Source: Adhaeribacter radiodurans
GTDB taxonomy: Bacteria; Bacteroidota; Bacteroidia; Cytophagales; Hymenobacteraceae
Assembly (NCBI RefSeq): GCF_014075995.1
Contig: NZ_CP055153.1
Location: forward strand, 1,240,001-1,304,000
Length of the DNA: 64,000 nt
Direction of reading: 5' to 3'
Each line of letters starts with the position of its first letter. The stretch's first letter is position 1. Both the position numbers and the translations under genes were made by a program. Positions 29,583 through 53,565 of the stretch are shown here, in pieces. Under the pieces are notes generated by a model that saw only the letters and a list, made by a program, of their open reading frames with translations, was not told the DNA's origin and ran no database searches.

Positions 29583-29627
29583 TTGTTTAATCTTGTGTGA
29601 TTTATATAATTAGTAAATCAGATACTC

Positions 29628-33911: not shown

Positions 33912-36900
33912 TTAGCGGCTTAGCACTACTTTCTGGTGACTTTGGTGGTTATTGGTTTGCAGGCGCAGAATATAAATACCGGCTGCCGAATGCTGGGCTT
34001 GCCATTGCCGGGTATAGTTCTGATTTGCCTGGGCTACTTCCTCGAACAAAGTCGTAACTTCCTGCCCCTGACTGTCGAACACCTTTACCGTAACTTTTTG
34101 GGTTTGCGGTACCCGGAAGGTAACATTTACTTCCTGCACAAACGGATTCGGGTATGCGGTAAGAGGCAAGAGTTTAGCGGAACGAAATTCTTCGGGTTGG
34201 AAAGTAGATGATTGGGAGGCTATTAGGGGGGTAATAGTTTTTACCGGAGCTACTTTCACGAGCCAAATATCATTCTCGCCCTGGCTAGGCTGGGTTCGGT
34301 CGCCACTTACGCCGGAGTTGGAGCGTCCGCCAAGCAAATAACCACCCTCCTGCGTCGTCCATAGAGCCCGGAGTTCTTCTTGCTGGCTGCCGCCGTAGCG
34401 TTTATCCCAGAGCTTGGTGCCCGCCGAGTTGGTCTTAACGAGCCAGTAATCGCTTGCTCCTTGGCTGGTTTGAGTTTTATCCCCGCTCTTGCCGGAAAAG
34501 GAAGTGCCCCCCAGAACATAACCGCCATCTTTATCTAAAATCAGAGAACGTAACGTTTCTTCGGCGCTGCCGCCGTACGTTTTATCCCATTGTTTTTCGC
34601 CGGAACCATTCACTTGCACCAGCCAATAATCTTTGCCGCCCTTGCTGTTCTGGCTTTTTTCTCCACTTATATTAGAAGCGCTATGACCCGCTAGTAAGAA
34701 AGAATTATAACTGGTATTTAATAAGGCTAAAAGCTGATCCTGGTCGCTGCCGCCGTAGCGTTTATCCCAAAGCTTTTTACCGTCTTTATCTATTCTTAGC
34801 AGCCAGTAATCACTGGAGCCTTGCGTACCCTGGCTTTTATCGCCTGAAGCGGAAGAGAAGGAAGTGCCTCCTATGAGTAAATCCCCTTTGGCAAGGGCTA
34901 AAATATCTCCTAAGTAATCGTCGCCCGCTCCTCCGAAGCGTTTATTCCAGGCTATGTCACCGTTAAAGCTATAAATCTTTATTAACCAGTAATCTAAACC
35001 ACCCTGGGTGCCTTGGGTTTTATCGCCACTTACCGGCGAGTCGCTGTAGCCGGCTAATACATAAGAGTCGGTATACAAATAGGATAGTATTACAATTTTT
35101 TGTAAGTCGTCGGTGCCATTGCCACCGTACGTTTGATCCCATTCTTTTTCCCCGCTGCTGCTTATTTTTACGAGCCAAATATCCCGGCCCCCTTTACTGA
35201 TTGCCATTTTATTACCATTACTTCCCGATTCGGAACTTCCGCCTAATAAAAAGCCACCATCGGTAGTGGGAACCATACTTTTCAGGTAATCATCCGCAGA
35301 GCCACCATACCGTTTATCCCAGAGCTTATTGCCAGCTGCATCGGTTTTTACTACCCAATAGTCGTTTTTACCATAACTATTCTGCGATTTATCGCCCGAT
35401 TTAGGAGAGGAAGAATACCCGCCGAGCAAATACCCACCATCGTTAGTGGGCAGTACGGTGGTTAAAAAGTCGGAGCTACTGCCGCCGTAGCGCAGGTTCC
35501 AGGCCGCCAGAGAAGAGGAAGGAAAGGCACTGATTTTAGTTTCTATTAACCAGAAGTCGTAGTTACCTTTACTATTTTCGCTTTTTTCATAGCCACTGTT
35601 CGAATTGGAGTGGCCCCCAAGCAAAAAGCCGCCGCTGGGAGTAGCAATAATAGCCGCTAATTCGTCGGAATTGCGTGCGCCGAAGCTTTTATCGCTAATC
35701 TTTTGCCCGTTTTCATCTATCTCTACGAGCCAGTAGTCTTGGTTGCCTCTATTTTCTTCGGTCCGGTCGAAGCCCTGATTGGACCAAGTATACCCGGCCA
35801 GTAAGTAATGATTGTTGGAAGTAGGTAATATATCTACCGGAAAAGAATAATTTACTTCGCAGGCAAAACACGCAATAGAACTACCTAAGAAAAATTTATC
35901 CCAAATAACATTACCTTTTGAATCGGTTTTTATTGCCCAGTACCCGTACGTTTCAAAACCTGAAATACCCACCAGTAAATACCCACCTTCGGGAGTTGTA
36001 ACTAAGGCAGTAAGCCGGTCAGAATATTCCCGGTTATAGGTTTTATTCCAAATTTGTTCGCCCTTTGCGTTTATTTTAATTACCCAATAATCGGTATCGT
36101 CATCGGTGCTGGTACTGTATCCTCCTAAAAGGTAATTACCATCGGGCGTAGGTATTATAGAAGAAAGAACATCATCAGGGGCATTACCAATGGTTGTATC
36201 CCAAACTTTATTTCCCTTGTTGTCTACTTTTACTATCCAAAAGTCGGAAGGAGTACCCGTAAATTCATCTGGTTCGCCTTTATTCCCTTCGCTTTTATCC
36301 CCACTTATATCTGATTGGGAAGAACCCCCGAGCAAGTATCCACCATCGGGGGTAGCAACTATTGCCGAAAGATTATCATCTAAATTTCCACCAATGGTTT
36401 TGTCCCAAAGTTTATTGCCGGAGGCATCTACTTTCACCAACCAGTAATCGTTCTTGCCTTTATTGGCTTCACTTTTATCACCATCTTTACCCGAAGCCGA
36501 AGAGCCGCCCAACAAATAACCGCCACCCACCGCCGGAACAATAACAGCCAATTTTTCGGTACCTTTACCACCAAAAGATTTATCCCAGATTTTCTTTTTG
36601 TTCGCATCGGTTTTTACCAACCAGAAATCCGATTGACCTTTACCAGCGCTACTCTTATCCCCGGAAATACCGGAGGAAGAGGAGCCACCTAGTAAATAAC
36701 CGCCGTCGGGAGTAGTAACCAGGTCGGCCAGCATATCTTCTCCACTTCCGCCAATGGTTTTATCCTGTTGTTTGGGAAATCTTTGTACCCGAAATCGAGC
36801 AGTATATTCTACGGGGCTATACATAGCATCACCCGCCTGAAAAGCTTTTACCACTACCGTTCCATAGCCGGTAAAGCGCAATTGATTGCTTTTTTGAGTG

Positions 36901-38432
36901 GCTGGTCCGGAAATTAGCTTAAACGTAACGGGCAAACCCGAACTAGCTTTGGCTGAAAGAGTGATAGGGGAACTGGTAAGTGCCCTATCGGGTGGGTAAA
37001 AGGCAATGGTTTGCACTTTTTTATTCGGAATTTGGAGTTTCACTAACCAATAATCATCATTAGGATAGGAACCCGATATACCACCCAGCAAGATATTACC
37101 ATCGGAAGTAGGCGTAATATAGGAACCACTAGTCACGCTGGTGTCCCAAAGTTTTTTTCCTTTCGCATCTATTTTTATGATCCAGGTGTCGCCAACACCT
37201 CTTCTGGGCGTCATGTCGCCTCCACTCTCCGAATCAGAACTGCCACTTAATAGGTAACCACCATCTTTCACTGGCAAAATAGAGGTAAGTTCTTCTCTTT
37301 CATTGCCGCCGAAAGTTTTGTCCCAAACTTTGCTGCCGTCCGTAGCAATTTTTACCAGCCAATAATCGCCTAAGATATCATCATCAGTTTCGTCGCGGGT
37401 AGGCTCACTTTTATCCAGGCTTTTAGTAGATTCGGAACGTCCTCCCAGCAAGTAGCCGCCATCCGTGGCTACTACCAGCGTATTTAATACATCGTCGTGG
37501 TATCCGCCAAAGGTTTTATCCCATTGTTTAGCACCCTTTTCCGAAATTTTTACAACCCAATAATCATAACAAGGAGTACCAAAGCCGTCGGTGCAATCAC
37601 TTTTTCGCGGGTCACTTTTCGAGCCACTTTTATTAGAACTGGATCGGCCTCCCAGTAAATAGCCACCATCGGGAGTAGTAATTAAGGAATAGAGATCATC
37701 TGAGTCATCGCCCCCAAAAGTTTGGTCCCAGACTTTATTGCCACTGGCATTTAGTTTTAGCACCCAGTAGTCATAACTGCCATTATTGCTCTGGCTTTTA
37801 TCGCCTGATTTTTCAGAGTTAGATTCCCCTCCTACAATATAGCCGCCATCGGGGGTTAGTTGAAGAGAATGCAGATAATCACCATAATTGCCGCCGTAGG
37901 TTTTATCCCATACTATTTTGCCATTGGCGTTTAATTTTACTATCCAATAATCTGGGTAATAAACAAAACCTTTATTTGCTTCGGACTTATCGCCTGATTT
38001 ATCGGAGTAAGAATAACCCGCCAGAATATAGCCGCCATCACTGGTTTGCAGTACGGATGCTAAAATGTCGGAATCGTTTCCTCCCAAAGTTTTATCCCAG
38101 ACTTTATTGCCTTTGCCATCTATTTTTACTACCCAATAATCCGTGGTACAATTATCCGGGGTGCATACTCCCCGGTTTGCTTCGGATTTAGTACCACTAA
38201 TACCCGAAGAAGAAGAACCCCCGACAATATAGCCGCCATCGCTGGTTTTCTGTACAAAATGCAGTTCATCGCTGTGGTTACCACCCAGCGTTTTTTCCCA
38301 GATTTTAAATTGAGCAAGGGAGGAGAAGGAAACAAACAGCCATAACCCTAGCAAAAGTGTCAGACGACCGTTACTGGAAGGTTGAATAAAAAGATACCCA
38401 ATTTTAAACAAAAAAGATAAACGTGTTTTCAT
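33912..38432 (-). CDS. Giant T9SS-secreted 21-repeat protein 1, type A (predicted triple seven-bladed propeller)
   Basis: The 1506-residue protein has a 41-residue signal peptide ending SSLAQ. I parse 21 tandem units of about 60 residues of the form x-WDK-x2-GG-x3-D-x-L, DGGYLLGG, SGDKS, DYWLVK, D-x2-G. Units 1-7 span residues 42-471, an Ig-like domain (SGLPVTFKLISGPA) spans 472-553, units 8-14 span 554-977, units 15-21 span 978-1398, then a linker and a type A T9SS sorting domain at about 1428-1506 (AYPNPFVQEVNVTF, GIYILRLQ). Seven units per block suggest seven-bladed propellers. Unit 4 carries C280-x7-C288 and unit 13 carries C855-x2-C858, both conserved in the three paralogues downstream. 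It is the last gene of the array in transcription order. Function is unknown; surface or extracellular binding is inferred. Confidence 0.85.
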   Translation of the reverse strand: MKTRLSFLFKIGYLFIQPSSNGRLTLLLGLWLFVSFSSLAQFKIWEKTLGGNHSDELHFVQKTSDGGYIVGGSSSSGISGTKSEANRGVCTPDNCTTDYWVVKIDGKGNKVWDKTLGGNDSDILASVLQTSDGGYILAGYSYSDKSGDKSEANKGFVYYPDYWIVKLNANGKIVWDKTYGGNYGDYLHSLQLTPDGGYIVGGESNSEKSGDKSQSNNGSYDYWVLKLNASGNKVWDQTFGGDDSDDLYSLITTPDGGYLLGGRSSSNKSGSKSDPRKSDCTDGFGTPCYDYWVVKISEKGAKQWDKTFGGYHDDVLNTLVVATDGGYLLGGRSESTKSLDKSEPTRDETDDDILGDYWLVKIATDGSKVWDKTFGGNEREELTSILPVKDGGYLLSGSSDSESGGDMTPRRGVGDTWIIKIDAKGKKLWDTSVTSGSYITPTSDGNILLGGISGSYPNDDYWLVKLQIPNKKVQTIAFYPPDRALTSSPITLSAKASSGLPVTFKLISGPATQKSNQLRFTGYGTVVVKAFQAGDAMYSPVEYTARFRVQRFPKQQDKTIGGSGEDMLADLVTTPDGGYLLGGSSSSGISGDKSSAGKGQSDFWLVKTDANKKKIWDKSFGGKGTEKLAVIVPAVGGGYLLGGSSASGKDGDKSEANKGKNDYWLVKVDASGNKLWDKTIGGNLDDNLSAIVATPDGGYLLGGSSQSDISGDKSEGNKGEPDEFTGTPSDFWIVKVDNKGNKVWDTTIGNAPDDVLSSIIPTPDGNYLLGGYSTSTDDDTDYWVIKINAKGEQIWNKTYNREYSDRLTALVTTPEGGYLLVGISGFETYGYWAIKTDSKGNVIWDKFFLGSSIACFACEVNYSFPVDILPTSNNHYLLAGYTWSNQGFDRTEENRGNQDYWLVEIDENGQKISDKSFGARNSDELAAIIATPSGGFLLGGHSNSNSGYEKSENSKGNYDFWLIETKISAFPSSSLAAWNLRYGGSSSDFLTTVLPTNDGGYLLGGYSSSPKSGDKSQNSYGKNDYWVVKTDAAGNKLWDKRYGGSADDYLKSMVPTTDGGFLLGGSSESGSNGNKMAISKGGRDIWLVKISSSGEKEWDQTYGGNGTDDLQKIVILSYLYTDSYVLAGYSDSPVSGDKTQGTQGGLDYWLIKIYSFNGDIAWNKRFGGAGDDYLGDILALAKGDLLIGGTSFSSASGDKSQGTQGSSDYWLLRIDKDGKKLWDKRYGGSDQDQLLALLNTSYNSFLLAGHSASNISGEKSQNSKGGKDYWLVQVNGSGEKQWDKTYGGSAEETLRSLILDKDGGYVLGGTSFSGKSGDKTQTSQGASDYWLVKTNSAGTKLWDKRYGGSQQEELRALWTTQEGGYLLGGRSNSGVSGDRTQPSQGENDIWLVKVAPVKTITPLIASQSSTFQPEEFRSAKLLPLTAYPNPFVQEVNVTFRVPQTQKVTVKVFDSQGQEVTTLFEEVAQANQNYTRQWQAQHSAAGIYILRLQTNNHQSHQKVVLSR

Positions 38433-38747
38433 TTCAGGTAGGATAAAAGAATAACGTTAACTCCAGAACATCAAAAGAAATACCCAGCTTTTAATGAAAA
38501 AATAAAGAAACGGGTTGCGAAGAAGGATTTAAGGCTATTGCCCTAATTTTTATGATTTAAGCTAAACTTAAGCCAATAAGTGATAGTGGTAGGTGTATGG
38601 TGTTTTAGGGCTGCCTATTACAAAAGTTAATAGGTAGGACAGTTTGAATTTACTTTTTTCATTTCTGAATCATTCATAACCTTTCATATTTAAAGTTTAA
38701 AAGATTTAAGAAACAAACGGTATTTGCTTATACATTCCGCAAACAGT

Positions 38748-38976: not shown

Positions 38977-38992
38977 AAATCTTATAAATATA

Positions 38993-41900
38993 CTACTCTT
39001 GAGTTTTCAATAGTTTAATAGTATGAATTTTATTTGGGGTGTGCAGTTGTACGATATAAATCCCAGCTGCTTTAGTGCCGGCTTTCCATTTACAAGTATA
39101 CGTTTGAGCTGCCTGCACTTCTCCTTTAAATAAAGTAGCTACTTCCTGCCCTTGGCTATTATACACCTTTACCGTAGCTTTTTGCGTTTGTGGCAGTTTA
39201 AAGCTAATATTTACTTCTTGTACAAATGGGTTCGGGTAAGCCGTACCAGGTTGAAGTATGCTACTTACTTCTGACTCTGAAGCAGTTATTTTTTTGCTAA
39301 CTATAGTTTGAGTAGTTACCGGAGCCACTTTCACGAGCCAGAAATCATTTTCGCCTTGGCTGGGCTGGGTTCTATCCCCGCTCACGTCGGAGTTGGAGCG
39401 CCCTCCTAACAGATAGCCGCCATCATCGGTAATCCACATGGCCCGGAGTTCTTCTTGCTGGCTGCCGCCATAACGTTTATCCCAGAGCTTTTCGCCTTTG
39501 TTATTGGTCTTCACCAGCCAATAATCACTGCTGCCTTGGCTTTCCTGACTCTTGTCGCCACTCTTACCGGAGAAAGAAGTGCCACCAAAAATATAACCAC
39601 CATCTTTATCCAGAAGGAGAGAACGTAGGGTTTCATCTTCGCTGCCGCCGTAAGTTTTATCCCATTGTTTTTCGCCTTTACCATCTACTTGTACCAGCCA
39701 AAAGTCCTTACCTCCTTGGCTAGCCTGGCTCTTGTCGCCGCTTACTCCAGAAGCACTATTACCTCCTAACAAAATTGTATTTTCTTTTAAGCTCAGCAAA
39801 GCTAAGAGTTGGTCTTGGTTTGCGCCCCCGTAGCGTTTATCCCAGAGTTTTTTACCTTCGCTATTGGTTTTCAGCAGCCAATAATCACTACCTCCCCGAT
39901 TGCTTTGGCTTTTATCACCGGTAGCAGAGGAAAAGGAAGTACCCCCCACGAGTAAGTCTCCATTATTCAGCACCAATACATCACCTGGGTAATCATTGGC
40001 ATTCCCGCCGTAGGTCTTATCCCAATACTTAAAGCCACCATTATCGTTAATCTTGATTAACCAGTAATCTAAACCTCCTTTATTGGCTTGCGTTTTATCT
40101 CCCCCTACAGGAGAGTCGCTGTAGCCGGCTAGCAGAAACGTGCCATCTGGTAAAGAAATAATTTTCTGTAAGTCTTCCAGGCCACTGCTACCGTAGCTTT
40201 GTTCCCATTCTTTCTCCCCAATACTATTTATTTTTACTATCCAAATATCACGTTTACCTTTATTTGCAGCTGTTTTATTGCCATTATTAGTTGATTCGGA
40301 ACTGCCACCTAATAAAAAGCCGCCATTATAAGTTGGTACAATGCTTTTAAGATAGTCCGCCCCTGTGCCACCGTAGCGTTTATCCCAGAGCTTCTTACCC
40401 GCAGCATCTGTCTTTATTACCCAGTAATCGCTTTTGCCATACCCATTTTGGCTCTTGTCGCCTGATTGCTTGGAATAGGAATAGCCACCTAGTAAATATC
40501 CGCCATCGTTGGTAGGGAGAACAGTAGTTAAATTATCTAGATTATTGCCGCCATAGAGCAGGTTCCAGGCTTCCAGAGTAGTGGGTGGAAACGTACTAAT
40601 TTGAGTTTCTACCAGCCAAAAATCATTATCCCCTTTACTGTTCTCGCTTTTCTCGTGGCTAGCGGGGGAATTGGAATAGCCACCGAGCAGGTAACCGCCG
40701 TTATCAGTGGGTATCATGGCCACTAAATAATCCGGATTATCTCCACCAAAGGACTTATCTCCTATTCTCAGCCCGTTTTCATCTATTTCCAGAACCCAAT
40801 AATCTTCCCTTCCCCTGTTTTTTTCACTCCGGTCTCGACCTTGCGTTGAATAAGAATAGCCAGCCAGTAAATAATGACCAGTTGGAGTAGGAAGAATTTC
40901 TATTGGTATTGACCTGTTGTTTTCACAAAAATAACAAGTAAACACAACCGCTCCGCCATATTCTTTTTCCCAGATTATGGTGCCCTTAGAGTCTAATTTA
41001 AGTACCCAATAATTAAATGGTGATTCAAAACCTGAGACACCGGCTATTAAGGCTCCTCCATCAGGAGTGGGTAGCATAGCGGTGAGCTTATCAATTACAT
41101 AGCCGTGGTCGTAAGTTTTGTCCCAGAGTTTTTTGCCTTGAGTGTTTATTTTAACTACCCAGTAATCTTCAAATCCTTTATTAGCTTCGGTTTTATCTCC
41201 ACTTTTATCTGAATCAGAACTACCACCCAATAAGTAACCATCATTATCGGTTGCTATTATACTAGCGAGGTTATCAGTATTATTCCCTCCGAAGGTTTTG
41301 TCCCACAATTTGTTACCATGCCCATCTATCTTTACTATCCAATAATCGATATTCCCTCTGCTGGGTTCGCTCTTGTCGCCACTTTTGTTTGAATTAGAAG
41401 AACCACTTAACAGGTAACCGCCGTCGGGAGTAGCAATTATGGTTTTAAGGTTATCATCCTGATTGCCGCCGAAGGATTTATCCCAGAGTTTATTTCCGCT
41501 AGCATCTACTTTTACTAGCCAATAATCCAATTTGCCTTTACTCGTACTACTTTTATCGCCCTCTCTACCCGAAGCTGAAGAACCGCCTAACAGGTAAGCT
41601 CCATCCGATGTAGGAATAATAGTAGAAATAGTTTCGGTGCCTTTGCCGCCATAAGATTTGTCCCAGACCTTCTTTTTATCCTTATCTAATTTCACCAGCC
41701 AATAATCCGATTCGCCCTTACTAGCCAAACTCTTGTCTCCAGATATTCCCGAGGAAGATGTACCCGCCAGCAAATATCCGCCATCGGGAATAGCTACCAT
41801 ATCGGCCAGCATATCTGCCTTATCGCCGCCAATGGTTTTGTCTTGTTGTTTAGGAAACCTGACTACCTGAAAGCTAGTGGTATATTCTACGGCACTATAG

Positions 41901-43447
41901 CTATCGTTACCTGCCTGAAAGGCTTTCACGACCACGGTGCCGTAAGCGGTAAAGCGCAACTGGTTATTCTTTTGAATAGCCGGTCCGGAAATAAGTTTAA
42001 AGGTAACCGGCAACCCTGAATTAGTTTTAGCCGAAAGGGTATAAGGCGAATTGGCGAGACCCTGATCAGGTGGATAAAAGGTTATTGTTTGTACTTTTTT
42101 ATTCGGAATCTGTAGCTTCACCAACCAAAAATCAGTGTTGTAGAAGGAGTTTAAGAAACCTATGAACTTAGTGCCAGCTAACAGGCAATTGCCATCTGAA
42201 GTAGGCACTAAAAATGGCCCACTTTCTACATTGGTGTCCCAAATTTTGTTGCCTTTAGCATCTATTTTCAGAACCCAATTACTTCCAATACCCCTACGAA
42301 TACCCATTTCGCCGCCACTATCTGAGCCAGAATAGCCGCTTAAAAGATAACCACCATCCTGCGTGCCTACCAAAGTGGCAAGTTCATCGGTTTTGTTACC
42401 CCCATAAGCTTTGTCCCAAACTTTGGTGCCGTTGGCTTGAATTTTAATTAACCAAAAGTCTCCTGTATTTTCATCTTCCTTATCATCGCGGGTGGGGTCA
42501 CTTCTATCCATGCCTTTATCTGATGCGGAAACTCCCCCTAATAAATAACCACCATCAGAAGTAGTAGCTATAGTGGTAATTCGGTCATTGTCGTAACCTC
42601 CAAAAGTTTTATCCCACTGTTTGGTACCTATACCATTAATTTTTACCACCCAGTAATCGTAACAAGCTTCTCCATCGGAATTAGTACATTCACTTTTCCT
42701 TGATTCGCTTTTATCGCCCCCTTTATCGGAAGTAGAAAAGCCTCCTAGTAAATAGCCACCATCAGGAGCAACTACCAGAGCAGTAAGTATGTCCCGGTCC
42801 ATTCCGCCATAAGCTTTATCCCATACTTTGCTGCCATCAGGGTTTACTTTTGCTACCCAATATTCTCCTCTTTTTGTAGCAGAATTAAATATACCCGCCA
42901 GAACATAGCCGCCATCACTCAATTGCCGGATAAAGGATATTCCACCACCAGGAATAGTTTTATCCCAGGCTTTACTACCATCGGCTTTTAATTTTACCAT
43001 CCAGGCCCCGGTAGGAGCTTCGCTTTTGTCTCCACTTTTACCAGATTGAGACTCGCCCCCCAGAATATAGCCACCATCCTTGGTTTGTTGCACCGAGTTT
43101 AAAAAGTCGCCATTTTTTCCGCCAAAAGATTTATCCCAGGCTTTGCTGCCATCTGCATTAAGTTTAATTACCCAGTAATCCCAATCACCCTTACTAGGTT
43201 GGGTTTTATCGCCGCCTAGGCCTGAAACCGACCACCCGCCTAGAAGGTAGCCGCCGTCGCTGGTTTGTATGGCAGTAGTTATTCTGTCTTCTCTATTCCC
43301 GCCATAGGTTTTATCCCAAAGTTTAATTTGCGCTTTAACAGAGAAAGAATACAAAATGATTGTATGGAAAACGAATAGTCGTAGCCAAATGCTCCGAAAT
43401 CGAAAAAAGTGTTTGCATACCTGCAATAGGAATACATGTGTTTTCAT
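38993..43447 (-). CDS. Giant T9SS-secreted 21-repeat protein 2, type B
   Basis: The 1484-residue protein has a 40-residue signal peptide ending SVKAQ and the same order of modules as gene 1: seven repeat units, the Ig-like domain (TITFYPPDQGLANSPYTLSA, SGLPVTFKLISGPA), seven units, seven units, and a T9SS sorting domain (AYPNPFVQEVNISF, GIYIVQLH). Units 2, 3, 7 and 12 are short because the SGDKS loop is reduced. Unit 4 has C-x7-C (SECTNSDGEAC) and unit 13 has C-x2-C (TCYFCENN). Its C-terminus (HTIKLLKTQE) and leader resemble gene 4 rather than its immediate neighbours. A 151-nt block (39426-39576) is almost identical to gene 4. Function is unknown. Confidence 0.85.
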   Translation of the reverse strand: MKTHVFLLQVCKHFFRFRSIWLRLFVFHTIILYSFSVKAQIKLWDKTYGGNREDRITTAIQTSDGGYLLGGWSVSGLGGDKTQPSKGDWDYWVIKLNADGSKAWDKSFGGKNGDFLNSVQQTKDGGYILGGESQSGKSGDKSEAPTGAWMVKLKADGSKAWDKTIPGGGISFIRQLSDGGYVLAGIFNSATKRGEYWVAKVNPDGSKVWDKAYGGMDRDILTALVVAPDGGYLLGGFSTSDKGGDKSESRKSECTNSDGEACYDYWVVKINGIGTKQWDKTFGGYDNDRITTIATTSDGGYLLGGVSASDKGMDRSDPTRDDKEDENTGDFWLIKIQANGTKVWDKAYGGNKTDELATLVGTQDGGYLLSGYSGSDSGGEMGIRRGIGSNWVLKIDAKGNKIWDTNVESGPFLVPTSDGNCLLAGTKFIGFLNSFYNTDFWLVKLQIPNKKVQTITFYPPDQGLANSPYTLSAKTNSGLPVTFKLISGPAIQKNNQLRFTAYGTVVVKAFQAGNDSYSAVEYTTSFQVVRFPKQQDKTIGGDKADMLADMVAIPDGGYLLAGTSSSGISGDKSLASKGESDYWLVKLDKDKKKVWDKSYGGKGTETISTIIPTSDGAYLLGGSSASGREGDKSSTSKGKLDYWLVKVDASGNKLWDKSFGGNQDDNLKTIIATPDGGYLLSGSSNSNKSGDKSEPSRGNIDYWIVKIDGHGNKLWDKTFGGNNTDNLASIIATDNDGYLLGGSSDSDKSGDKTEANKGFEDYWVVKINTQGKKLWDKTYDHGYVIDKLTAMLPTPDGGALIAGVSGFESPFNYWVLKLDSKGTIIWEKEYGGAVVFTCYFCENNRSIPIEILPTPTGHYLLAGYSYSTQGRDRSEKNRGREDYWVLEIDENGLRIGDKSFGGDNPDYLVAMIPTDNGGYLLGGYSNSPASHEKSENSKGDNDFWLVETQISTFPPTTLEAWNLLYGGNNLDNLTTVLPTNDGGYLLGGYSYSKQSGDKSQNGYGKSDYWVIKTDAAGKKLWDKRYGGTGADYLKSIVPTYNGGFLLGGSSESTNNGNKTAANKGKRDIWIVKINSIGEKEWEQSYGSSGLEDLQKIISLPDGTFLLAGYSDSPVGGDKTQANKGGLDYWLIKINDNGGFKYWDKTYGGNANDYPGDVLVLNNGDLLVGGTSFSSATGDKSQSNRGGSDYWLLKTNSEGKKLWDKRYGGANQDQLLALLSLKENTILLGGNSASGVSGDKSQASQGGKDFWLVQVDGKGEKQWDKTYGGSEDETLRSLLLDKDGGYIFGGTSFSGKSGDKSQESQGSSDYWLVKTNNKGEKLWDKRYGGSQQEELRAMWITDDGGYLLGGRSNSDVSGDRTQPSQGENDFWLVKVAPVTTQTIVSKKITASESEVSSILQPGTAYPNPFVQEVNISFKLPQTQKATVKVYNSQGQEVATLFKGEVQAAQTYTCKWKAGTKAAGIYIVQLHTPNKIHTIKLLKTQE

Positions 43448-43732: not shown

Positions 43733-46700
43733 TTATTGCGTTAAGAAAACTTTCTGGTAGCTTTGGTGTGTATTGGATTGCAGGCGCAGAGTGTAAATTC
43801 CGGGTGAGGAATGACTCGCCTTCCACCTACGGGTATAGGTTTGATTTCCCTGGGCTACCTCCTCAAACAAAGTAACTATTTCCTGGCCCTGACTATCGTA
43901 CACTTTTAATGTAATTTTTTGCGTTTGTGGTACCCGGAAGCTAATATTTACCTCCTGCACAAACGGATTTGGGTAAGCGGTAAGTGGCAAAAGTTCGGCG
44001 GAGGTAAGTTCTTTTGGGGTAAAAGTATCAGAATGAGCAGCTGCCAATGAGATAGTTGATGTTACCGGAGCTACCTTCACCAGCCAGAAATCATTTTCCC
44101 CTTGGCTAGGCTGGGTTCTATCCCCGCTCACGTCGGATTTGGAGCGACCGCCTAACAGATAACCGCCATCTTCGGTAGTCCACACGACTCTAAGTTCTTC
44201 TTCGTTGCTGCCGCCGTAACGTTTATCCCAGAGTTTTTTACCTTTATTATTTGTCTTTACCAGCCAATAATCACTGCTGCCTTGGCTCTCCTCGCTCTTA
44301 TCTCCACGATTACCGGAGAAGGAAGTTCCACCTAATACGTAGCCGCCATCTTTATCCAGAATAAGAGAACGTAGATTCTCGTCACTGCTGCCACCATAGG
44401 TTTTGTCCCATTTTTTTTCTCCTTTATTATTCACTTGCACCAGCCAGAAGTCCTTATCTCCTTTATTAGCCTGGGTTTTTTGACCGCTTATTCCAGAATC
44501 ACTATGGCCGGCCAACAAGAAAGTACTTGTATTTGGACTTAACATAGCCAAAAGTTGGTCTTGGTTTTTGCCGCCATAGCAGTTGTCCCAGAGTTTTTTA
44601 CCTACCTTATCCGTTCTCAGCAACCAGTAATCACTGGAGCCTTGATTACCCTGACTTTTATCTCCCGAAACAGAAGAGAAGGAAGTGCCTCCGACCAGTA
44701 AGTCTCCATTATTCAATACTAATACATCAGCTACGTAATCGTTGGCGGTTCCACCATAGGTTTTATCCCAAATTTTATGGCCGTAGTGCATGTTAATTTT
44801 AACTAACCAGTAATCTAGATTGCCTTGGTTCACTTGGGTTTTATCTCCCCCAACAGGAGAGTTGCTGTAACCAGCAAGCAAATATGTGCCATCGGGTAGT
44901 GCAATAATTTTTTGTAGGTCTTCTGTTTCTTGGCCGCCGTAGCTTTGTTCCCACTCTTTTTCTCCGCTTCTACTTATTTTTACTACCCATATATCTCTGC
45001 CTCCTTTATTAATTGCCTTTTTATTTCCGCTTATACCCGATTCAGAACCTCCGCCCAGCAAAAATCCGCCATCGGCAGTAGGCGCAATACTTTTAAGATA
45101 ATCTTCTTTGGTGCCACCATACCGTTTATCCCAGAGTTTATTCCCAGCGGCATCTGTCCTTACTACCCAATAGTCACTTTTACCGTAGCTGTCCTGACTT
45201 TTATCACCAGATTTATTTGAATAGGAATACCCCCCAAGCAAATACCCACCATCGTTGGTTTTTATAACTGTAGTTAAATAGTCGGAATTGCTGCCACCAT
45301 AGCGCAGGTTCCAGGCTTGCAGAGAAGAAGGAGGAAAGGCACTGATTTGCGTTTCTATTAACCAAAAATCTAAATCACCTTTACTATTTTCACTTTTTTC
45401 GTGATCAGTATTTGAACTGGAATAACCCCCGAGCAAATAACCGCCGTTGGAAGTAGCTATAATAGCCGTTAATTGGTCAGTGTCGTGGCCACCGAAAGAT
45501 TTATCAGCAATCTTCTGCCCATTGGCATCAATCTCCACGAGCCAGTAATCCTGGCGACCTCTATTTGCTTCGCTCCGGTCACCACCTTGATTGGAATGGG
45601 TATAACCAGCCAGTAAATAATGATCTGTTGAAGTCGCTTGTATATCTACGATAGTAGATCGATTAATTTCGCAGGTGTAGCAAGTAAAAATAGGTCTGCC
45701 GCCGTAGAGTTTATCCCATATTTTGTTTCCATCCGAATCTAATTTTGCTATCCAATAATAATAGCTTTCAAAACCAGCTATACCAGCTAATAAATAGCCG
45801 CCATCCGGTAAAGTAATCATAGCAGATATGTTATGAATGTAACCGTTATTATCGCTACTGTAATCAAAAGTTTTCTCCCAAATTTGCTGACCTTGAGTAT
45901 CTATTTTTATTAATAGGTAATTGAAACTATATACAATATTACCGCCAATCAGGTAATTGCCATCCGGCATAGCTATTAAGGAGGTTAGTACATCATCAAG
46001 CTGGGAGCCGTAAGTTTTATCCCATACCTTATTACCGTTTCCATCAATCTTAACTAACCAAATGTCGGGCGGAATATACCCGTTTTCGTACGGTGTACCC
46101 TTATTCTCTTCGCTTTTATCGCCACTTTTACCCGATTGGGAGGAACCGCCTAGTAAAAACCCGCCATCAGGAGTAGCGACTATTACTGCTAAATTATCAT
46201 CCTTATTTCCACCTATAGTTTTATCCCAGAGTTTTGTGCCGTTAGCATCAATTTTCACTATCCAAAAATCATTCTTGCCCTTATTGCCTTCACTTTTATC
46301 TCCTTCTTTATCCGAGGTAGAGTAGCCGCCCAGTAGGTATCCTCCATCCGGAATGGAAATAATAGTTGCTAATTTTTCGATACCTTTGCCGCCGAAGGAT
46401 TTATCCCAGATTTTGTTTTTATCTTTATCTGTTTTTACCAGCCAGTAATCCGAGTCACCCTTACTAACCATACTTTTATCGCCGGATATATCCGAGGAAG
46501 AAGAGCCAGCTAGCAAATACCCGCCATCGGCAGTAGCCACCATATCGGCCAAAATATCTGAACCATTGCCACCAATTGTTTTATCATTTTGAGGAGTCAG
46601 ACGCTGTACCCGAAAACTTGTGGTATATTCTACCGGGCTATAAGTAGCATCACCCGCTTGAAAAGCTCTTACTACTACGGTACCGTAGCCAGTAAAGCTT

Positions 46701-48229
46701 AATTGATTACCATTTTGAATAGCTGGTCCGGAAATAAGCGTGTAAGTAACTGGTAATCCTGAGCTAGCTGAAGCTGTCAGAATAATTGGAGAATTAGTTA
46801 AGGCTTTGTCTGGTGGAAAAAAGGTAAGCGTTTGGGCGTTCTTATTTGGAATTTGAAGCTTTACTAACCAATAGTCGCTATTAGGATATCCGCTAAAATT
46901 ACCAGTCAGCAGAATACTACCATTAGAAGTTGGTAATAATTGGGAGCCGCTCTCTAAGCTTGTATCCCAAAGTTTAGTACCGGCTGTATCTATTTTTACG
47001 ACCCAAGTATTACCTATTCCTCTTCTAATTCCCATGTCTCCACCACGATCTGAATTAGAAAAGCCGCTCAACAAGTAACCGCCATCCGGCGTAGTTAACA
47101 GGGAGGTAAGGTTAACATATTTATTGCCGCCAAAGGTTTTATCCCATATTTTGCTGCCATCTTTTCCAATTTTAATTACCCAGTAATCGCCGAAAACATC
47201 ATCTTCCGTATCGTCTCGGGCAGGCTCACTTTTATCTATACTCTTACCAGATTCGGATAGACCGCCCAGTAGGTAACCACCATCCGGTGCCAAAGCCAGG
47301 GCATTCAGTACATCATCCTCGTATCCGCCAAAAGTTTTATCCCATTCCTTAGTGCCTTCACTTGTAATTTTTACGACCCAATAATCCAAACAAGGTGAGC
47401 CACCATCATCCGTGCAGTCACTTTTCTTTGATTCGCTCTTATCTCCGCTTTTATCAGAAGCAGAATAGCCTCCTAGTAAAAAACCATCATCGGGAGTAAC
47501 AATTAGGGAAGTAAGAGCATCCGACTCATTACCTCCAAAAGTTTTATCCCATTCTTTGCTGCCATCCTCCTTTAGCTTCACTACCCAGTAGTCCCAACTG
47601 CCATTTACACCCTGCGATTTATCACCGCTTATACCAGAACCGGAATATCCTCCCAAAATAAAGCCCCGGTCACTCGTTTGTTGTACCGTTACTATAAAGT
47701 CAGACTCAGTTCCTCCTAAGGTTTTGTCCCATTCCTGTTGTCCACTGGTATTTAATTTTACTATCCAATAATCGGTGCTAAAATCACCTTTATTGTTCTC
47801 AGTTTTATCACCTGATTTCCCGGAATAAGAATATCCACCGAGAATATAGCCCCCGTCACTGGATTGTTGTACCGATGCTAAATAGTCAGACTTATTACCC
47901 CCAAAAGTTTTATCCCAGGCTTTGCTGCCATCCAGATTTAACTTAACAATCCAATAATCTTCTTCTCCTCGGCTAGCTTCAGTTTTATCGCCGCTAATTC
48001 CGGAAGAGGAAGTACCCCCCAGGATATGGCCCCCATCGCTCGTTTGCTGTGCTCTGGCTAGTCCATCACTTTGGTTACCTCCGTAGGTTTTTTCCCATAG
48101 TTTAGTTTGGGCAAGAGAGGAAAAATATACCGGTAACCATAATAAGATAATAAGTACTGGCCGGCTGTTATTGGAACGCAAAGTAAAAGTATACCCTCCT
48201 TTTAAAAGAAGAGATAAATGTGTTTTCAT
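43733..48229 (-). CDS. Giant T9SS-secreted 21-repeat protein 3, type A
   Basis: The 1498-residue protein has a 41-residue signal peptide ending SSLAQ, whose first residues (MKTHLSLLLKGGY) match gene 1 (MKTRLSFLFKIGY). Modules are seven repeat units, an Ig-like domain (TLTFFPPDKALTNSPIILTA, SGLPVTYTLISGPA), seven plus seven units, and a T9SS sorting domain (AYPNPFVQEVNISF, PGIYTLRLQ, ending SYQKVFLTQ as in gene 1). Unit 4 has SDCTDDGGSPC and unit 13 has TCYTCEIN. Unit 5 carries the acidic insert DDTEDDVFGDYW that is also acidic in the three paralogues and could bind calcium. Unit 19 has an unpaired Cys (WDNCYGG). Function is unknown. Confidence 0.85.
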   Translation of the reverse strand: MKTHLSLLLKGGYTFTLRSNNSRPVLIILLWLPVYFSSLAQTKLWEKTYGGNQSDGLARAQQTSDGGHILGGTSSSGISGDKTEASRGEEDYWIVKLNLDGSKAWDKTFGGNKSDYLASVQQSSDGGYILGGYSYSGKSGDKTENNKGDFSTDYWIVKLNTSGQQEWDKTLGGTESDFIVTVQQTSDRGFILGGYSGSGISGDKSQGVNGSWDYWVVKLKEDGSKEWDKTFGGNESDALTSLIVTPDDGFLLGGYSASDKSGDKSESKKSDCTDDGGSPCLDYWVVKITSEGTKEWDKTFGGYEDDVLNALALAPDGGYLLGGLSESGKSIDKSEPARDDTEDDVFGDYWVIKIGKDGSKIWDKTFGGNKYVNLTSLLTTPDGGYLLSGFSNSDRGGDMGIRRGIGNTWVVKIDTAGTKLWDTSLESGSQLLPTSNGSILLTGNFSGYPNSDYWLVKLQIPNKNAQTLTFFPPDKALTNSPIILTASASSGLPVTYTLISGPAIQNGNQLSFTGYGTVVVRAFQAGDATYSPVEYTTSFRVQRLTPQNDKTIGGNGSDILADMVATADGGYLLAGSSSSDISGDKSMVSKGDSDYWLVKTDKDKNKIWDKSFGGKGIEKLATIISIPDGGYLLGGYSTSDKEGDKSEGNKGKNDFWIVKIDANGTKLWDKTIGGNKDDNLAVIVATPDGGFLLGGSSQSGKSGDKSEENKGTPYENGYIPPDIWLVKIDGNGNKVWDKTYGSQLDDVLTSLIAMPDGNYLIGGNIVYSFNYLLIKIDTQGQQIWEKTFDYSSDNNGYIHNISAMITLPDGGYLLAGIAGFESYYYWIAKLDSDGNKIWDKLYGGRPIFTCYTCEINRSTIVDIQATSTDHYLLAGYTHSNQGGDRSEANRGRQDYWLVEIDANGQKIADKSFGGHDTDQLTAIIATSNGGYLLGGYSSSNTDHEKSENSKGDLDFWLIETQISAFPPSSLQAWNLRYGGSNSDYLTTVIKTNDGGYLLGGYSYSNKSGDKSQDSYGKSDYWVVRTDAAGNKLWDKRYGGTKEDYLKSIAPTADGGFLLGGGSESGISGNKKAINKGGRDIWVVKISRSGEKEWEQSYGGQETEDLQKIIALPDGTYLLAGYSNSPVGGDKTQVNQGNLDYWLVKINMHYGHKIWDKTYGGTANDYVADVLVLNNGDLLVGGTSFSSVSGDKSQGNQGSSDYWLLRTDKVGKKLWDNCYGGKNQDQLLAMLSPNTSTFLLAGHSDSGISGQKTQANKGDKDFWLVQVNNKGEKKWDKTYGGSSDENLRSLILDKDGGYVLGGTSFSGNRGDKSEESQGSSDYWLVKTNNKGKKLWDKRYGGSNEEELRVVWTTEDGGYLLGGRSKSDVSGDRTQPSQGENDFWLVKVAPVTSTISLAAAHSDTFTPKELTSAELLPLTAYPNPFVQEVNISFRVPQTQKITLKVYDSQGQEIVTLFEEVAQGNQTYTRRWKASHSSPGIYTLRLQSNTHQSYQKVFLTQ

Positions 48230-48984: not shown

Positions 48985-51900
48985 TTATTGCGTAAGCAGA
49001 AGTTTAATCGTGTGGTTCTTATACTGGCTGTATAGGCGCAGCAAATACATACCAGTTCTTTGATTATTGGGCTGCCATTTTATTTGATAGGTTTGTTTAG
49101 CTTGGGCTTTACCCCGGAACAAGGTGGCTGTTTCTCTACCCTGATAGTCAAAGAGTTTTATTATAACTTGCTGAGTTTTGGGTGAAGTAAAACGGATGGT
49201 AGTATTAGAAGACAAGGGATTAGGATAAGCTTGTAAGCTAAATCCGTTGCTGGAAATCTCTGTATTTTCTGTAATTGCCGGTTCCCTGCTAGCTATTAGA
49301 GTTGTAGTTACCGGAGCTACTTTAACGAGCCAAAAATCATTTTCGCCTTGGCTGGGCTGGGTTCTGTCGCCGCTTGCGTCGGAGTTGGATCGCCCTCCTA
49401 GTAAGTACCCGCCATCTTCGGTAATCCACATGGCCCGGAGTTCTTCTTGCTGGCTGCCGCCATAACGTTTATCCAAGAGCTTTTCGCCTTTGTTATTGGT
49501 CTTCACCAACCAATAATCACTGCTGCCTTGGCTTTCCTGACTCTTGTCGCCACTCTTACCGGAGAAAGAGGAGCCACCTAAAATATAACCACCATTTTTA
49601 TCCTGAATCAACGAACGTAGGGTTTCATCTTCGGTGCCGCCGAAGGTTTTATCCCAGAGCTTTTCGCCTTTACCATCTACTTGTACCAGCCAAAAGTCCT
49701 TACCGCCTTGACTAACCTGGCTCTTGTCCCCGCTCTTACCCGAAGCGCTCTGGCCGGCTAATAAGATGGTGTCTTTATTAATACTGAGCATAGAATAGAG
49801 TTGGTCTTGGTCGTTGCCACCATAGCGTTTATCCCAGATTTTATTTCCTTGGTTATCGGTGCGAATAATCCAAAAATCGGAACCACCTTGGTTAGACTGA
49901 CTTTTATTTCCACTAATAGAAGAAAAAGAGGTTCCTCCTAATAATAAATTATCATTTTCTAACAGTGATACATCTTCCAGGAAATCGTTAGCTGCCCCGC
50001 CGAAACATTTTTCCCACATTTTATAGATGTTAAAATCATCAATGGTAACTTTAATTATCCAGTAATCTTGTCCGCCCCGATTCGCTTGATTTTTATTGCC
50101 ACTTACCGGAGAATTGCTAAAACCAGCTAATAAATACTCATTGGCGGTAACCCACTTTATTTTTCGTAAATCTTCGTTCCCTGTGCCGCCGTAACTGCGG
50201 TCCCATTCTTTTTCACCGGTACTATTTATCTTTACTATCCAAAAATCTTTACCTCCGTAACCGGCTACACTTTTATTTCCACCTTTACCAGACTCCGAAC
50301 TGCCACCTAATAAAAAACCACCATCTGGGGTAGCAACAATGCTGTTCAGAAAATCATGGCCTGTGCCTCCGTAGCGTTTATCCCACAACTTGTTACCAGA
50401 TGCATCGGTTTTTACCACCCAGTAGTCACTTTCGCCTTGGCTAATCTGAGTTTTATCGCCGGATGGGTTAGAATACGAATAACCCCCAAGTAAATAACCA
50501 CCGTCGGTAGTTCGGATAACGGTAGTAAAATTATCCAGACCAGTACCACCGTAACGTAAATTCCAGGCTTCCAGGGTTGAAGGTGGAAAAGTGCTTAATT
50601 GGGTTTGTACCAGCCAAAAATCCTGATTGCCTTTACTGTTTTCACTTTTCTCATTGCCTGCATTAGAGTAGGAATTGCCGCCCAAGAGATAGCCCCCATT
50701 CGGCAAGGCTAGAAGAGTGGTTAGAAAATCTGAACTACCGCCTCCGAAAATTTTGTCAGCGACCTTCTTTCCATTTTCATCTATCTCTAATAACCAATAG
50801 TCTTGCCCACCACGGTTACCTTCGGTTCGGTCGTCACCTTTATCGGAATAGGAGTAGCCAGCCACTAAATAATTTCCGTTGGCAATAGGTAAAACGTCTA
50901 TTGGGAAAGATTCATTTGTATCACAAAAAGTACAGGAATGAACACCTTCTCCCCGGTAAAACTTATCCCATAATTGGTTACCTTCTGCATCTGTTTTTAT
51001 TATCCAGTAAGAAAACCTTTCTTGACCCGAACTACCCACTAAAAGGTATCCGCCATCCGGAGTAGTAATAAGGGAGGTTAATTTATTGTACACATCGTAT
51101 ATGTACGATTTATTCCAGAGCTGCTCTCCTTGGGGGGTTATTTTGACTATCCAGTATTTAGAGAATTGGTCCGAATCTATTACGCTTTCTCCACCAATCA
51201 GGTAATTGCCATTTGGGGTAACGATTATAGAGTATAATCTATCTTCATACCCGCCGCCAAAGGTCTTATCCCATACTTTATTGCCCTCACCATCTATCTT
51301 TACTACCCAAAAATCGGCGGTATATTTGCCATTTTCGCCCACTTTCCCTTTGTTGTTTTCACTTTTATCGCCACCCTTACCCGATTGGGAATTGCCTCCC
51401 AGTAAATAGCCTCCCTCTGGGGTAGGCAAAATAACGGTAAGATTATCATCCAAGTCGCCGCCAATGGTTTTGTCCCAGAGTTTAGTGCCATTAGCGTCTA
51501 CTTTTACCAGCCAATAATCAGCGTTGCCTTTACTAACTGTACTTTTGTCGCCTTCTTTACCCGATGAAGAGGAACCACCTAGTAAATAACCCCCATCCGG
51601 CGTGGAAATAATGGTGGCCATTGTTTCCCGGCCTGCACCGCCGTAAGATTTATCCCACAGCTTTTTCCTGTCTTTATCCATTTTCACGAGCCAGAAATCA
51701 GAAAGACCCTTACTCGCCATACTTTTATCGCCCGTACTACCCGAAGAAGAGGTGCCCGCTAGTAAATATCCACCATCGGGAGTGGATACCATGTCGGCTA
51801 GTAAATCTGCTTGATTTCCGCCAAAGGTTTTATCCTGAAGTTTGGGAAATCTTTGCACCTGAAAACTGGCGGTATATTCAACTGGACTATAGGTGGCATT

Positions 51901-53565
51901 ACCGGCTTGCATGGCTTTTACTACAATAGTACCATAACCTTTAAAGCTTAGTTGATTGCCCTGGAGGGTAGCCGAGCCGGATAGTACCTGATAGGTAACC
52001 GGCAAACCGGAACTTGCCCTAGCCGAAAGAGTATAGGGAGAATTTCCTAAACCCTGATCTGTTGGGGAAAAGGAGATGGTTTGTATTTTTTTATCGGGAA
52101 TACCTAGCTTTATTACCCAAAAATCTTCAGCTCCTTTGCCTGCCTGGCTTTTTTCCCATTCTGCTATCCCAGTGTAGGCTTGTCCGGCTATTAAGCAATC
52201 ACCATCAGAAGTTAAGGCCATATCCAGGGTAAGGTTATTTACCAATTGTTTAACATTACTAAAAGCTTTATCCCAGATTTTTTCTCCTTTATCGTTAATT
52301 TTTAGTACCCAAATGCTTTCCACATCTCTTCTAACTTCGGTTATGTCGGTGCTCTGGTTAGAATTAGTATAACCTCCCAGCAGATAGCCGCCATCTGCAG
52401 TAACTAACACGTCCGCGAGGCCATCCCTTTTATTACCACCGTAGGTTTTGTCCCATTCTTTCGTGCCATCGGCTTTAATCTTTACTATCCAATAATCCCC
52501 ATTCGCTTCATCTTCCGTCGCATCCAGGCTGGGTTCACTTTTGTCGAAGCTTTTATTAGATTCGGAAGTACCGCCTAGTAAAAAACCACTATCGTTGGTA
52601 GCCACCATAGTAGAAAATATATCATCGGAGTAACCTCCTAAAGTTTTATCCCACAGTTTTTTACCATTTGAGTCAATTTTTACTATCCAATAATCGTAAC
52701 ATATTTCCCCATCGGTATTAATACAATCACTTTTACTTGGTTCGCTTTTATCGGCAAATTTGCCGGAATTAGAACTGCCCCCGAGTAGGTACCCTCCGTC
52801 ACTGGTCTGTTGCAAGGCGGTTAACTGATCATTATTCTCCCCACCAAAGGTTTTATCCCAAACTTTATTCCCAGTGCTATCTACTTTTACCACCCAATAA
52901 TCCGCTTGGTTATACCCATTTTCATTTACCGGGCGCCGGTTGTTCGCACTTTTATCGCCACTTTTGTTCGAATTTGAATATCCTCCCAGAATATAACCAC
53001 CGTCACTGGTTTGCTGCACTTCGGTTAACCTATCGTCATTATTACCACCTAAAGTCTTATCCCATATTTTATTACCATCCGCATCTAATTTTACAAGCCA
53101 ATAATCTCCACTCCCTTTTCCAGCCTCGCTTTTATCCCCGCTAATGCCGGAATTGGAATAACCGCCTAAAATATAGCCACCATCACTGGTTTGCTGCAAA
53201 GACGATAAAAAATCCCCATCATTCCCGCCAAAGGTTTTATCCCAGAGTTTAGTGCCATTGGCTCTTAATTTTATTATCCAATAATCGCCGTTTGACGTTC
53301 CTTTATTTGGCTCTGATTTATCGCCGCTTTTTCCGGAGTAAGAAGTACCTCCCAAAATAAAATTGCCATCATTAGTCTCCTTAGCTGATTTTAATACGTC
53401 ATTATCTTTTCCGCCAATAATTTTGTCCCAGAGTTTAACTTGCGCTTTTCCCTGCGGAGGATTTAGGAAAAAAATAAGAAGAATAATTCCTAGAATTCGC
53501 CATCCCTTAATTTGGGAAGGTAAAAATTTACTAAATACTTTAAATTGAGCTACACGTATTTTCAT
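48985..53565 (-). CDS. Giant T9SS-secreted 21-repeat protein 4, type B
   Basis: The 1526-residue protein is the first gene of the array in transcription order. It has a 42-residue signal peptide ending GKAQ with a long basic n-region, seven repeat units, an Ig-like domain (TISFSPTDQGLGNSPYTLSA), seven plus seven units, and a T9SS sorting domain (AYPNPLSSNTTIRFTSPKTQ, HTIKLLLTQ). Unit 7 is longer than in the paralogues and keeps a SQAGKGAEDFW segment. Unit 4 has SDCINTDGEIC and unit 13 has SCTFCDTN. In unit 21 the usual KLWDK is KLLDK. Units at each position resemble the same position in the paralogues more than adjacent units, so the 21-unit form predates the duplications. Function is unknown. 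Confidence 0.85.
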   Translation of the reverse strand: MKIRVAQFKVFSKFLPSQIKGWRILGIILLIFFLNPPQGKAQVKLWDKIIGGKDNDVLKSAKETNDGNFILGGTSYSGKSGDKSEPNKGTSNGDYWIIKLRANGTKLWDKTFGGNDGDFLSSLQQTSDGGYILGGYSNSGISGDKSEAGKGSGDYWLVKLDADGNKIWDKTLGGNNDDRLTEVQQTSDGGYILGGYSNSNKSGDKSANNRRPVNENGYNQADYWVVKVDSTGNKVWDKTFGGENNDQLTALQQTSDGGYLLGGSSNSGKFADKSEPSKSDCINTDGEICYDYWIVKIDSNGKKLWDKTLGGYSDDIFSTMVATNDSGFLLGGTSESNKSFDKSEPSLDATEDEANGDYWIVKIKADGTKEWDKTYGGNKRDGLADVLVTADGGYLLGGYTNSNQSTDITEVRRDVESIWVLKINDKGEKIWDKAFSNVKQLVNNLTLDMALTSDGDCLIAGQAYTGIAEWEKSQAGKGAEDFWVIKLGIPDKKIQTISFSPTDQGLGNSPYTLSARASSGLPVTYQVLSGSATLQGNQLSFKGYGTIVVKAMQAGNATYSPVEYTASFQVQRFPKLQDKTFGGNQADLLADMVSTPDGGYLLAGTSSSGSTGDKSMASKGLSDFWLVKMDKDRKKLWDKSYGGAGRETMATIISTPDGGYLLGGSSSSGKEGDKSTVSKGNADYWLVKVDANGTKLWDKTIGGDLDDNLTVILPTPEGGYLLGGNSQSGKGGDKSENNKGKVGENGKYTADFWVVKIDGEGNKVWDKTFGGGYEDRLYSIIVTPNGNYLIGGESVIDSDQFSKYWIVKITPQGEQLWNKSYIYDVYNKLTSLITTPDGGYLLVGSSGQERFSYWIIKTDAEGNQLWDKFYRGEGVHSCTFCDTNESFPIDVLPIANGNYLVAGYSYSDKGDDRTEGNRGGQDYWLLEIDENGKKVADKIFGGGSSDFLTTLLALPNGGYLLGGNSYSNAGNEKSENSKGNQDFWLVQTQLSTFPPSTLEAWNLRYGGTGLDNFTTVIRTTDGGYLLGGYSYSNPSGDKTQISQGESDYWVVKTDASGNKLWDKRYGGTGHDFLNSIVATPDGGFLLGGSSESGKGGNKSVAGYGGKDFWIVKINSTGEKEWDRSYGGTGNEDLRKIKWVTANEYLLAGFSNSPVSGNKNQANRGGQDYWIIKVTIDDFNIYKMWEKCFGGAANDFLEDVSLLENDNLLLGGTSFSSISGNKSQSNQGGSDFWIIRTDNQGNKIWDKRYGGNDQDQLYSMLSINKDTILLAGQSASGKSGDKSQVSQGGKDFWLVQVDGKGEKLWDKTFGGTEDETLRSLIQDKNGGYILGGSSFSGKSGDKSQESQGSSDYWLVKTNNKGEKLLDKRYGGSQQEELRAMWITEDGGYLLGGRSNSDASGDRTQPSQGENDFWLVKVAPVTTTLIASREPAITENTEISSNGFSLQAYPNPLSSNTTIRFTSPKTQQVIIKLFDYQGRETATLFRGKAQAKQTYQIKWQPNNQRTGMYLLRLYSQYKNHTIKLLLTQ

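Follow-up and report, generated by a model that had tools for sequence, protein, structure and literature searches.

The four consecutive giant genes lying in a 64,000-nucleotide stretch of the Adhaeribacter radiodurans genome (the window) probably encode a set of surface binders, and we hold, with somewhat better than even confidence, that these proteins are exported through the T9SS and present diversified heads (propellers 1 and 2) on a common C-terminal adaptor (propeller 3). In this proposal, for which we infer surface location, binding, partner and purpose, the signal peptide would bring each chain into the periplasm and the C-terminal T9SS domain would take it across the outer membrane. 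Outside, three seven-bladed beta-propellers would form, the first strand of each completing its last blade and so closing the ring, and an Ig-like spacer would follow propeller 1. The upper-face loops of the heads, which differ between paralogues, would probably set the binding target, and the more conserved upper face of propeller 3, situated by the sorting domain, would probably meet one partner in all members, either the surface of the cell itself or the machinery of secretion and attachment. As a whole, the set would likely serve as a repertoire of binders for polymers, glycans or other cells.

A sequence-only reading of the window had described four genes, each with a signal peptide, 21 repeat units and a T9SS domain, an Ig-like domain after unit 7 and an AWNLRYGG-type linker before unit 15, and this layout was borne out by Pfam and by a unit profile, the signal peptides being judged by eye. 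The four minus-strand frames of the ORF list have uninterrupted translations (Table 1). Each holds 21 units of about 60 residues, as parsed with a profile made from the same four window proteins, and in all four the order is seven units, Ig-like domain, seven units, short linker, seven units and T9SS tail. The Ig-like gap after unit 7 measures about 84-89 residues, the linker ends in AWNL(R/L)YGG, and the signal peptides end, by eye, in ...AQ, which fits the Bacteroidetes Q-rule as given in the available text of PMC5837995. The domain limits proposed earlier for the first protein agree with ours to about a dozen residues. The T9SS tail was the only Pfam match above cut-offs in the four genes; the Ig-like domains received no Pfam name up to E 10 and are so labelled by eye. 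The Por_Secre_tail scores of genes 1-4 were 47.2, 38, 44.6 and 35.5 bits (cut-off 27), and SprA, the T9SS part that was searched for, is encoded by one gene in the genome (2408.9 bits, cut-off 200). Given both the C-terminal tail and a translocon gene, predicted T9SS export of the four is well supported. The description as an array of four understates the family, since the genome has dozens of related giants and the window itself holds a fifth member, with 14 units and a 165-residue insert between its two propellers. By eye, this insert looks like GEVED domains.

Table 1. Coordinates of the propeller genes, their domains and related loci (window positions, except for the last row)
Feature	Position	Strand	Basis or remark
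Conserved neighbours: SusD (27855-29582, -), SusC (29628-32963, -), hexapeptide-repeat protein (33297-33821, +)	27855-33821		next to propeller gene in four species
Gene 1 (P0001, 1506 aa): signal peptide, 21 units, T9SS tail	33912-38432	-	translation, unit profile
Gene 1 propeller 1, units 1-7 (aa 45-472)	37017-38300	-	unit profile
Gene 1 Ig-like domain (aa 473-556)	36765-37016	-	unit-profile gap, without Pfam match
Gene 1 propeller 2, units 8-14 (aa 557-966)	35535-36764	-	unit profile
Gene 1 propeller 3, units 15-21 (aa 978-1395)	34248-35501	-	unit profile
Gene 1 C-terminal region, T9SS sorting domain	33915-34247	-	Por_Secre_tail, E 2.8e-12
Gene 2 (P0002, 1484 aa), layout as gene 1	38993-43447	-	translation, Pfam, unit profile
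Gene 2 propeller 1 (aa 44-451)	42095-43318	-	unit profile
Gene 2 Ig-like domain	41843-42094	-	unit-profile gap, without Pfam match
Gene 2 propeller 2 (aa 536-949)	40601-41842	-	unit profile
Gene 2 propeller 3 (aa 961-1375)	39323-40567	-	unit profile
Gene 2 C-terminal region, T9SS sorting domain	38996-39322	-	Pfam
Gene 3 (P0003, 1498 aa), layout as gene 1; protein modelled	43733-48229	-	translation, Pfam, unit profile
Gene 3 propeller 1 (aa 45-459)	46853-48097	-	unit profile, model
Gene 3 Ig-like domain (aa 460-548)	46586-46852	-	unit-profile gap, without Pfam match
Gene 3 propeller 2 (aa 549-961)	45347-46585	-	unit profile, model
Gene 3 propeller 3 (aa 973-1387)	44069-45313	-	unit profile, model, Foldseek
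Gene 3 C-terminal region, T9SS sorting domain	43736-44068	-	Pfam, model
Gene 4 (P0004, 1526 aa), layout as gene 1	48985-53565	-	translation, Pfam, unit profile
Gene 4 propeller 1 (aa 46-493)	52087-53430	-	unit profile
Gene 4 Ig-like domain	51835-52086	-	unit-profile gap, without Pfam match
Gene 4 propeller 2 (aa 578-989)	50599-51834	-	unit profile
Gene 4 propeller 3 (aa 1001-1417)	49315-50565	-	unit profile
Gene 4 C-terminal region, T9SS sorting domain	48988-49314	-	Pfam
Fifth family member, cut at window end	61521-64000	-	whole ORF G000:C2:1301521-1304967
Six disrupted family genes (G000 C2)	1749929-1758582, 3041283-3050968, 4107163-4111907, 6256879-6261239		

Each of the four proteins very probably folds into three seven-bladed propellers in series, as had been supposed from the repeat counts; confidence in the predicted fold is good for propeller 3 and moderate for propellers 1 and 2. 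For propeller 3 plus tail of gene 3, modelled with 17 aligned window and relative sequences, the mean pLDDT was 87.6 and the pTM 0.76, and counting the DSSP lines gave 28 propeller strands followed by seven tail strands. The propeller strands come as one lone strand, six sets of four and a last set of three, as expected when the N-terminal strand closes the ring. The model spanning propeller 1, the Ig-like domain and propeller 2, based on four sequences, was of lower confidence (mean pLDDT 66.7, pTM 0.48), with 28 DSSP strands in propeller 1, 27 and a bridge of two residues in propeller 2, and a poor Ig-like part. Foldseek ranked CylK, itself seven-bladed and the nearest solved structure, first for both models (propeller 3 model: E 2.1e-22, rmsd 2.8 over 423 columns), and phmmer also placed it first by sequence (E 1.9e-23). 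Among the next fold matches were the PLL/PHL lectins of Photorhabdus, single small propellers with 8-14% identity. The unit count, moreover, is 21 in every one of the four paralogues.

The rule of seven extends well beyond the window. From stretches of the window's genome and six others we parsed 120 unit-bearing ORFs, and 93 of the 96 that have a T9SS-like tail, space for a signal peptide and no cut by the stretch end contain 7, 14, 21 or 28 units; the 24 ORFs excluded were pieces of disrupted genes, ORFs cut by the stretch end and two single-unit ORFs. The three exceptions have 19, 20 and 20 units, and both 20-unit ORFs contain a gap of 44 or 56 residues, about one blade long. The counted ORFs include 47 from the window's genome, one of which (4108818-4111907) probably represents the 3' portion of a gene broken by a frameshift. 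Among distant relatives, all 15 proteins from three related loci and 11 of 12 phylum-search loci (the twelfth being the window itself) have seven units, a count obtained with a profile iterated on the same relatives and including one partial unit of 11.5 bits in locus L080. In the phylum sample 37 of 148 genomes gave matches, the window's own included, and the 11 parsed loci carry one propeller each. One search of the window's genome returned 281 matches; the family counts are lower bounds because not every one of these was listed, and the family ORFs found occupy at least 212,238 bases, or 3.06% of that genome. Seven other genomes of the genus were searched: clusters and numerous strong matches turned up in G003, G005 and G006, and the matches in G001, G002, G004 and G007 were fewer or weaker, with at most 19 candidates scored per genome and with G001, G002 and G007 being assemblies of 100, 50 and 680 contigs, whose fragmentation may hide repeats. 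Eight single-propeller proteins of the window's genome carry GEVED, subtilase, TIG, CBM35, InlB-like or K319L-PKD domains above the Pfam cut-off, and in these eight metallopeptidase matches stayed under the cut-off. As separate observations, a 2012-residue ORF in G006 (C1, 4230564-4236602) has 28 units arranged as 7, gap, 7, gap and 14, i.e., four propellers, and an Ignavibacteria locus (L013, 5911-9132) holds a tandem pair of single-propeller genes whose tails look T9SS-like by eye.

The division into heads and adaptor came from comparing the propellers among family members. Mean identity is 0.596 for propeller 3, 0.504 for propeller 1 and 0.473 for propeller 2 (54 proteins). In 57 proteins, with the faces named after the CylK description (available text of PMC8916777), the D-A loops of propellers 1-2 (14 blades) show a variability of 2.01 bits vs. 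1.10 for those of propeller 3 (seven blades), the B-C loops 1.96 vs. 1.28 bits, and the top of strand A is also far more variable in propellers 1-2, all three with p printed as 0.0000. The two bottom turns (1.12 vs. 1.43 bits, p 0.49; 1.86 vs. 1.70 bits, p 0.58) and strands B (p 0.056) and C (p 0.44) gave no clear difference. These loop classes follow the secondary structure of one predicted structure, and the blades are not independent samples in the face test; the seven columns first called hypervariable were chosen post hoc, and the test was repeated with the model-derived classes. In the subset from the window's genome, the upper-face classes and the A-B turn agree with the result from all 57 proteins.

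Additionally, the propeller next to the tail tends to be of one class. When the propellers of 7-, 14- and 28-unit proteins were assigned to the best-scoring propeller profile, 23 of 31 tail-adjacent ones were P3-like vs. 1 of 26 others; in two-propeller proteins the P3 profile was best for the last propeller in 15/20 and for the first in 1/20, and three single propellers preceding other domains rather than the tail were all P2-like. The eight tail-adjacent propellers that are not P3-like include one behind a subtilase domain, and none of seven ORFs scored from outside was of the P3-like class (one of the seven being a chance match of 5 bits). From these counts, the P3 class is tied to the T9SS tail only in this bacterial group, and not always. 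A link of the class to proteases or carbohydrate-binding modules was rejected, the propellers of the subtilase, CBM35 and K319L-PKD proteins scoring best as P2. The P3-like single propellers of the window's genome stand behind GEVED domains with a metallopeptidase at most under the cut-off, or behind a weak Disaggr_repeat match.

Face variation and the tail-adjacent class together suggest ligand binding by propellers 1 and 2, as heads, and a shared adaptor role for propeller 3; since orthologue rates show no difference between the propellers, the pattern among paralogues is the only evidence for this split. More tentatively, the genus may possess dozens of surface receptors built on one plan for mix-and-match recognition, in which two heads diversified on their upper faces would be combined with a third propeller that uses a common upper face to dock all of them at the same cell site, and the tail-adjacent propellers would be kept alike, perhaps partly by gene conversion. 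Binding in general, though not particular ligands, would also be in line with a distant link to the LipL53 SBBP repeat lipoproteins (NCBIfam NF047494), with which the repeat regions match at E 6e-27 to 2.9e-34 and 94-119 bits, far below the cut-off of 400. LipL53 is a Leptospira lipoprotein, not a T9SS substrate, and is tabulated in the available text of PMC4388678 as binding the matrix proteins laminin, collagen IV and fibronectin. The fold matches to the PLL/PHL lectins offer a second, likewise distant precedent for binding. The Delta-60 repeat (TIGR02608) gave 19.9-38.6 bits, below its cut-off of 76.5.

We consider it unlikely that the proteins are instead a structural coat or spacer, in which the propellers would act as stiff discs, assembling into long fibres, a matrix or a surface layer and binding no specific ligand. 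The large copy number, the repeat architecture and the share of the genome in the family ORFs found (3.06%) would all suit such a role, and T9SS mutants of Tannerella are described as lacking the S-layer (available text of PMC4175972); a pure spacer, however, would not be expected to differ between paralogues most on the upper face of propellers 1-2, nor does a mean paralogue identity of only about 50% in these propellers speak for it.

The history of the array bears on a further alternative. A FastTree analysis of 57 full-length proteins placed the four in a nine-row clade on a long branch with support 100, together with two more genes of the same genome (C2, 3036493-3040995 and 6280353-6284993) and one gene from each of three congeners (L040, L041, L042). 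By position, gene 1 is orthologous to the single gene that each of these three congeners carries. There, the SusD, SusC and hexapeptide genes are 83-95% identical to those of the window, and the propeller protein has 59-74% identity with the window protein that it matches best. Conserved gene order stops beyond SusD. Towards G005, gene 1 has a dS of 1.09, inside the range of six neighbours (0.80-1.17), and a dN of 0.157, above all six (0.027-0.093). A young array was rejected, because paralogue dS (1.43-2.33) exceeds the orthologue distance and the congeners have one gene at the syntenic locus.

Orthologues are under purifying selection. In the four closest pairs (>72% identity), omega was 0.27-0.31 for upper-face columns, 0.24-0.26 for bottom turns and 0.09 for the rest, rough values in view of a global dS of about 1, and the three propellers behaved alike. 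These values therefore do not support positive or diversifying selection at the upper face, and, the upper face being not clearly faster than the bottom turns, nothing points to an arms race. A tract of about 300 bases around blades 20-21 is 91-92% identical between genes 2 and 4, with an identical run of 60 bases, against 66% overall, which suggests recent exchange. Trees by FastTree without bootstrap gave 22 genome-label changes for propeller 3 (1 of 200 shuffles as low), 27 for propeller 1 (110/200), 26 for propeller 2 (73/200) and 24 for propellers 1 and 2 jointly (10/200). That propeller 3 clusters by genome was accordingly taken as suggestive of gene conversion and not as proof, the better resolved joint head tree clustering by genome too; recent duplication alone could give the same clustering. 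By our reading, the six disrupted family loci of the window's genome comprise three with an in-frame stop and three with a frameshift.

To that alternative, namely that the proteins are diversified markers of kin or prey recognition or phage decoys whose repertoire changes through gene conversion and broken copies, we assign a low probability. It would account for the raised dN of gene 1 at a dS similar to that of its neighbours, for the gene 2/4 tract standing out from its background and for the six disrupted loci. Nevertheless, omega of 0.09-0.31 in the four orthologue pairs means purifying selection, and copies whose mutual dS lies above that to the closest orthologue are not fresh.

The comparison with CylK touches both a candidate metal site and possible catalysis. 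CylK has a seven-bladed propeller with a calcium site at every blade junction (available text of PMC8916777). Unit column 11, in or beside the blade-connecting loop, is D/E in 72 of 84 window units, with a gap in seven more, and CylK has an acidic residue at this place in all four units readable in the alignment; with this acidic column in common, calcium binding by the propellers is plausible. The CylK propeller domain (PDB 7RON, 7FH6; PMC8916777) has the repeat type, fold and seven blades in common with the window proteins, whereas CylK is one of the alkylating enzymes and joins a single propeller to a calcium-binding domain at its N-terminus, and the window proteins combine three propellers with an Ig-like spacer and a T9SS tail. 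Catalysis by CylK needs Tyr473 and also Arg105 in the N-terminal domain. Tyr473 corresponds to unit column 46, which ranks fifth in variability among the 60 columns in propellers 1-2. Column 29 corresponds to residue 391, which is mutated in PDB entry 7FH8; both columns are among the ten most variable of these propellers. That the proteins are enzymes, their propellers acting like CylK or upon extracellular polymers, would agree with the closest solved relative being an enzyme and with its catalytic tyrosine falling on a variable upper-face column, but it is a quite improbable reading: the Arg105-bearing domain is absent from the four, there being no space for it before unit 1, which starts at residues 44-46 directly after the signal peptide, and no enzyme family of Pfam or NCBIfam was found above cut-off. 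Hardly credible to us is a role as accessory parts of the secretion or attachment machinery, modelled on PorZ of Porphyromonas, which has two seven-fold propellers and a T9SS C-terminal domain, for there are dozens of paralogues and not one, and no Pfam propeller family matches the four.

Compared by layout, PorZ of Porphyromonas gingivalis does resemble the binders proposed here, with seven-fold propellers in series, a T9SS C-terminal domain and a position at the cell surface; it differs in being a single T9SS component with two propellers and a retained C-terminal domain, as opposed to three propellers in many paralogues. Triple propellers of the DDB1 type have three seven-bladed propellers per chain, as predicted for the window proteins, and are eukaryotic and intracellular. 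Several propellers per chain can also arise from amplified blades, and a 15-blade WD40 protein has been predicted as one 7-bladed plus one 8-bladed ring; according to the available text of PMC9218822, such amplified propellers have near-identical blades in varying counts, unlike the diverged blades in multiples of seven seen here. Our literature search, which mostly covered sources outside subscription journals, gave no T9SS three-propeller protein and no mention of this family among the matches listed. The family thus offers bacterial proteins assembled from whole propellers as units, with 7, 14, 21 or 28 blades, and a proposed split of tasks, open to testing, in which variable heads would work on a common adaptor. 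As it takes up about 3% of the genome and Pfam names only the export tail in the window four, a major surface component has remained functionally blank. If the heads do bind distinct ligands, the set would be a natural library of binding propellers.

Several smaller features of the region and the clade were also recorded. Two Cys pairs are conserved in all nine clade members, one in blade 4 of propeller 1 and the other at blade 6 of propeller 2, the latter being CxxC in the window four, and a DsbD-like gene is present in the window at 56230-58431. Between the array and this gene, the minus strand (53965-55902) encodes a protein of 645 residues that, by eye, has a signal peptide and that gave no Pfam match; in G005, no ORF of at least 150 residues was found at the corresponding place.

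Finally, the repeat units are not equally conserved. Units 7, 11, 12 and 13 had been thought to be diverged alike in all four proteins, each position being fixed by function or structure. By unit-profile score this holds for units 7, 12 and 13, which are low in all four genes, but unit 11 is weak only in genes 1, 3 and 4 (62, 45 and 57 bits); in gene 2 it reaches 92 bits, and unit 3 is weak in its place. The notion of fixed positions is therefore supported in part, unit 11 differing within the four and the family at large lacking the pattern: averaged over 54 members, the weakest units are 7, 12, 13, 14 and 19. The three single orthologues in congeners have weak units 7, 11, 12 and 13, and the pattern belongs to the clade of the four, not to the whole family.
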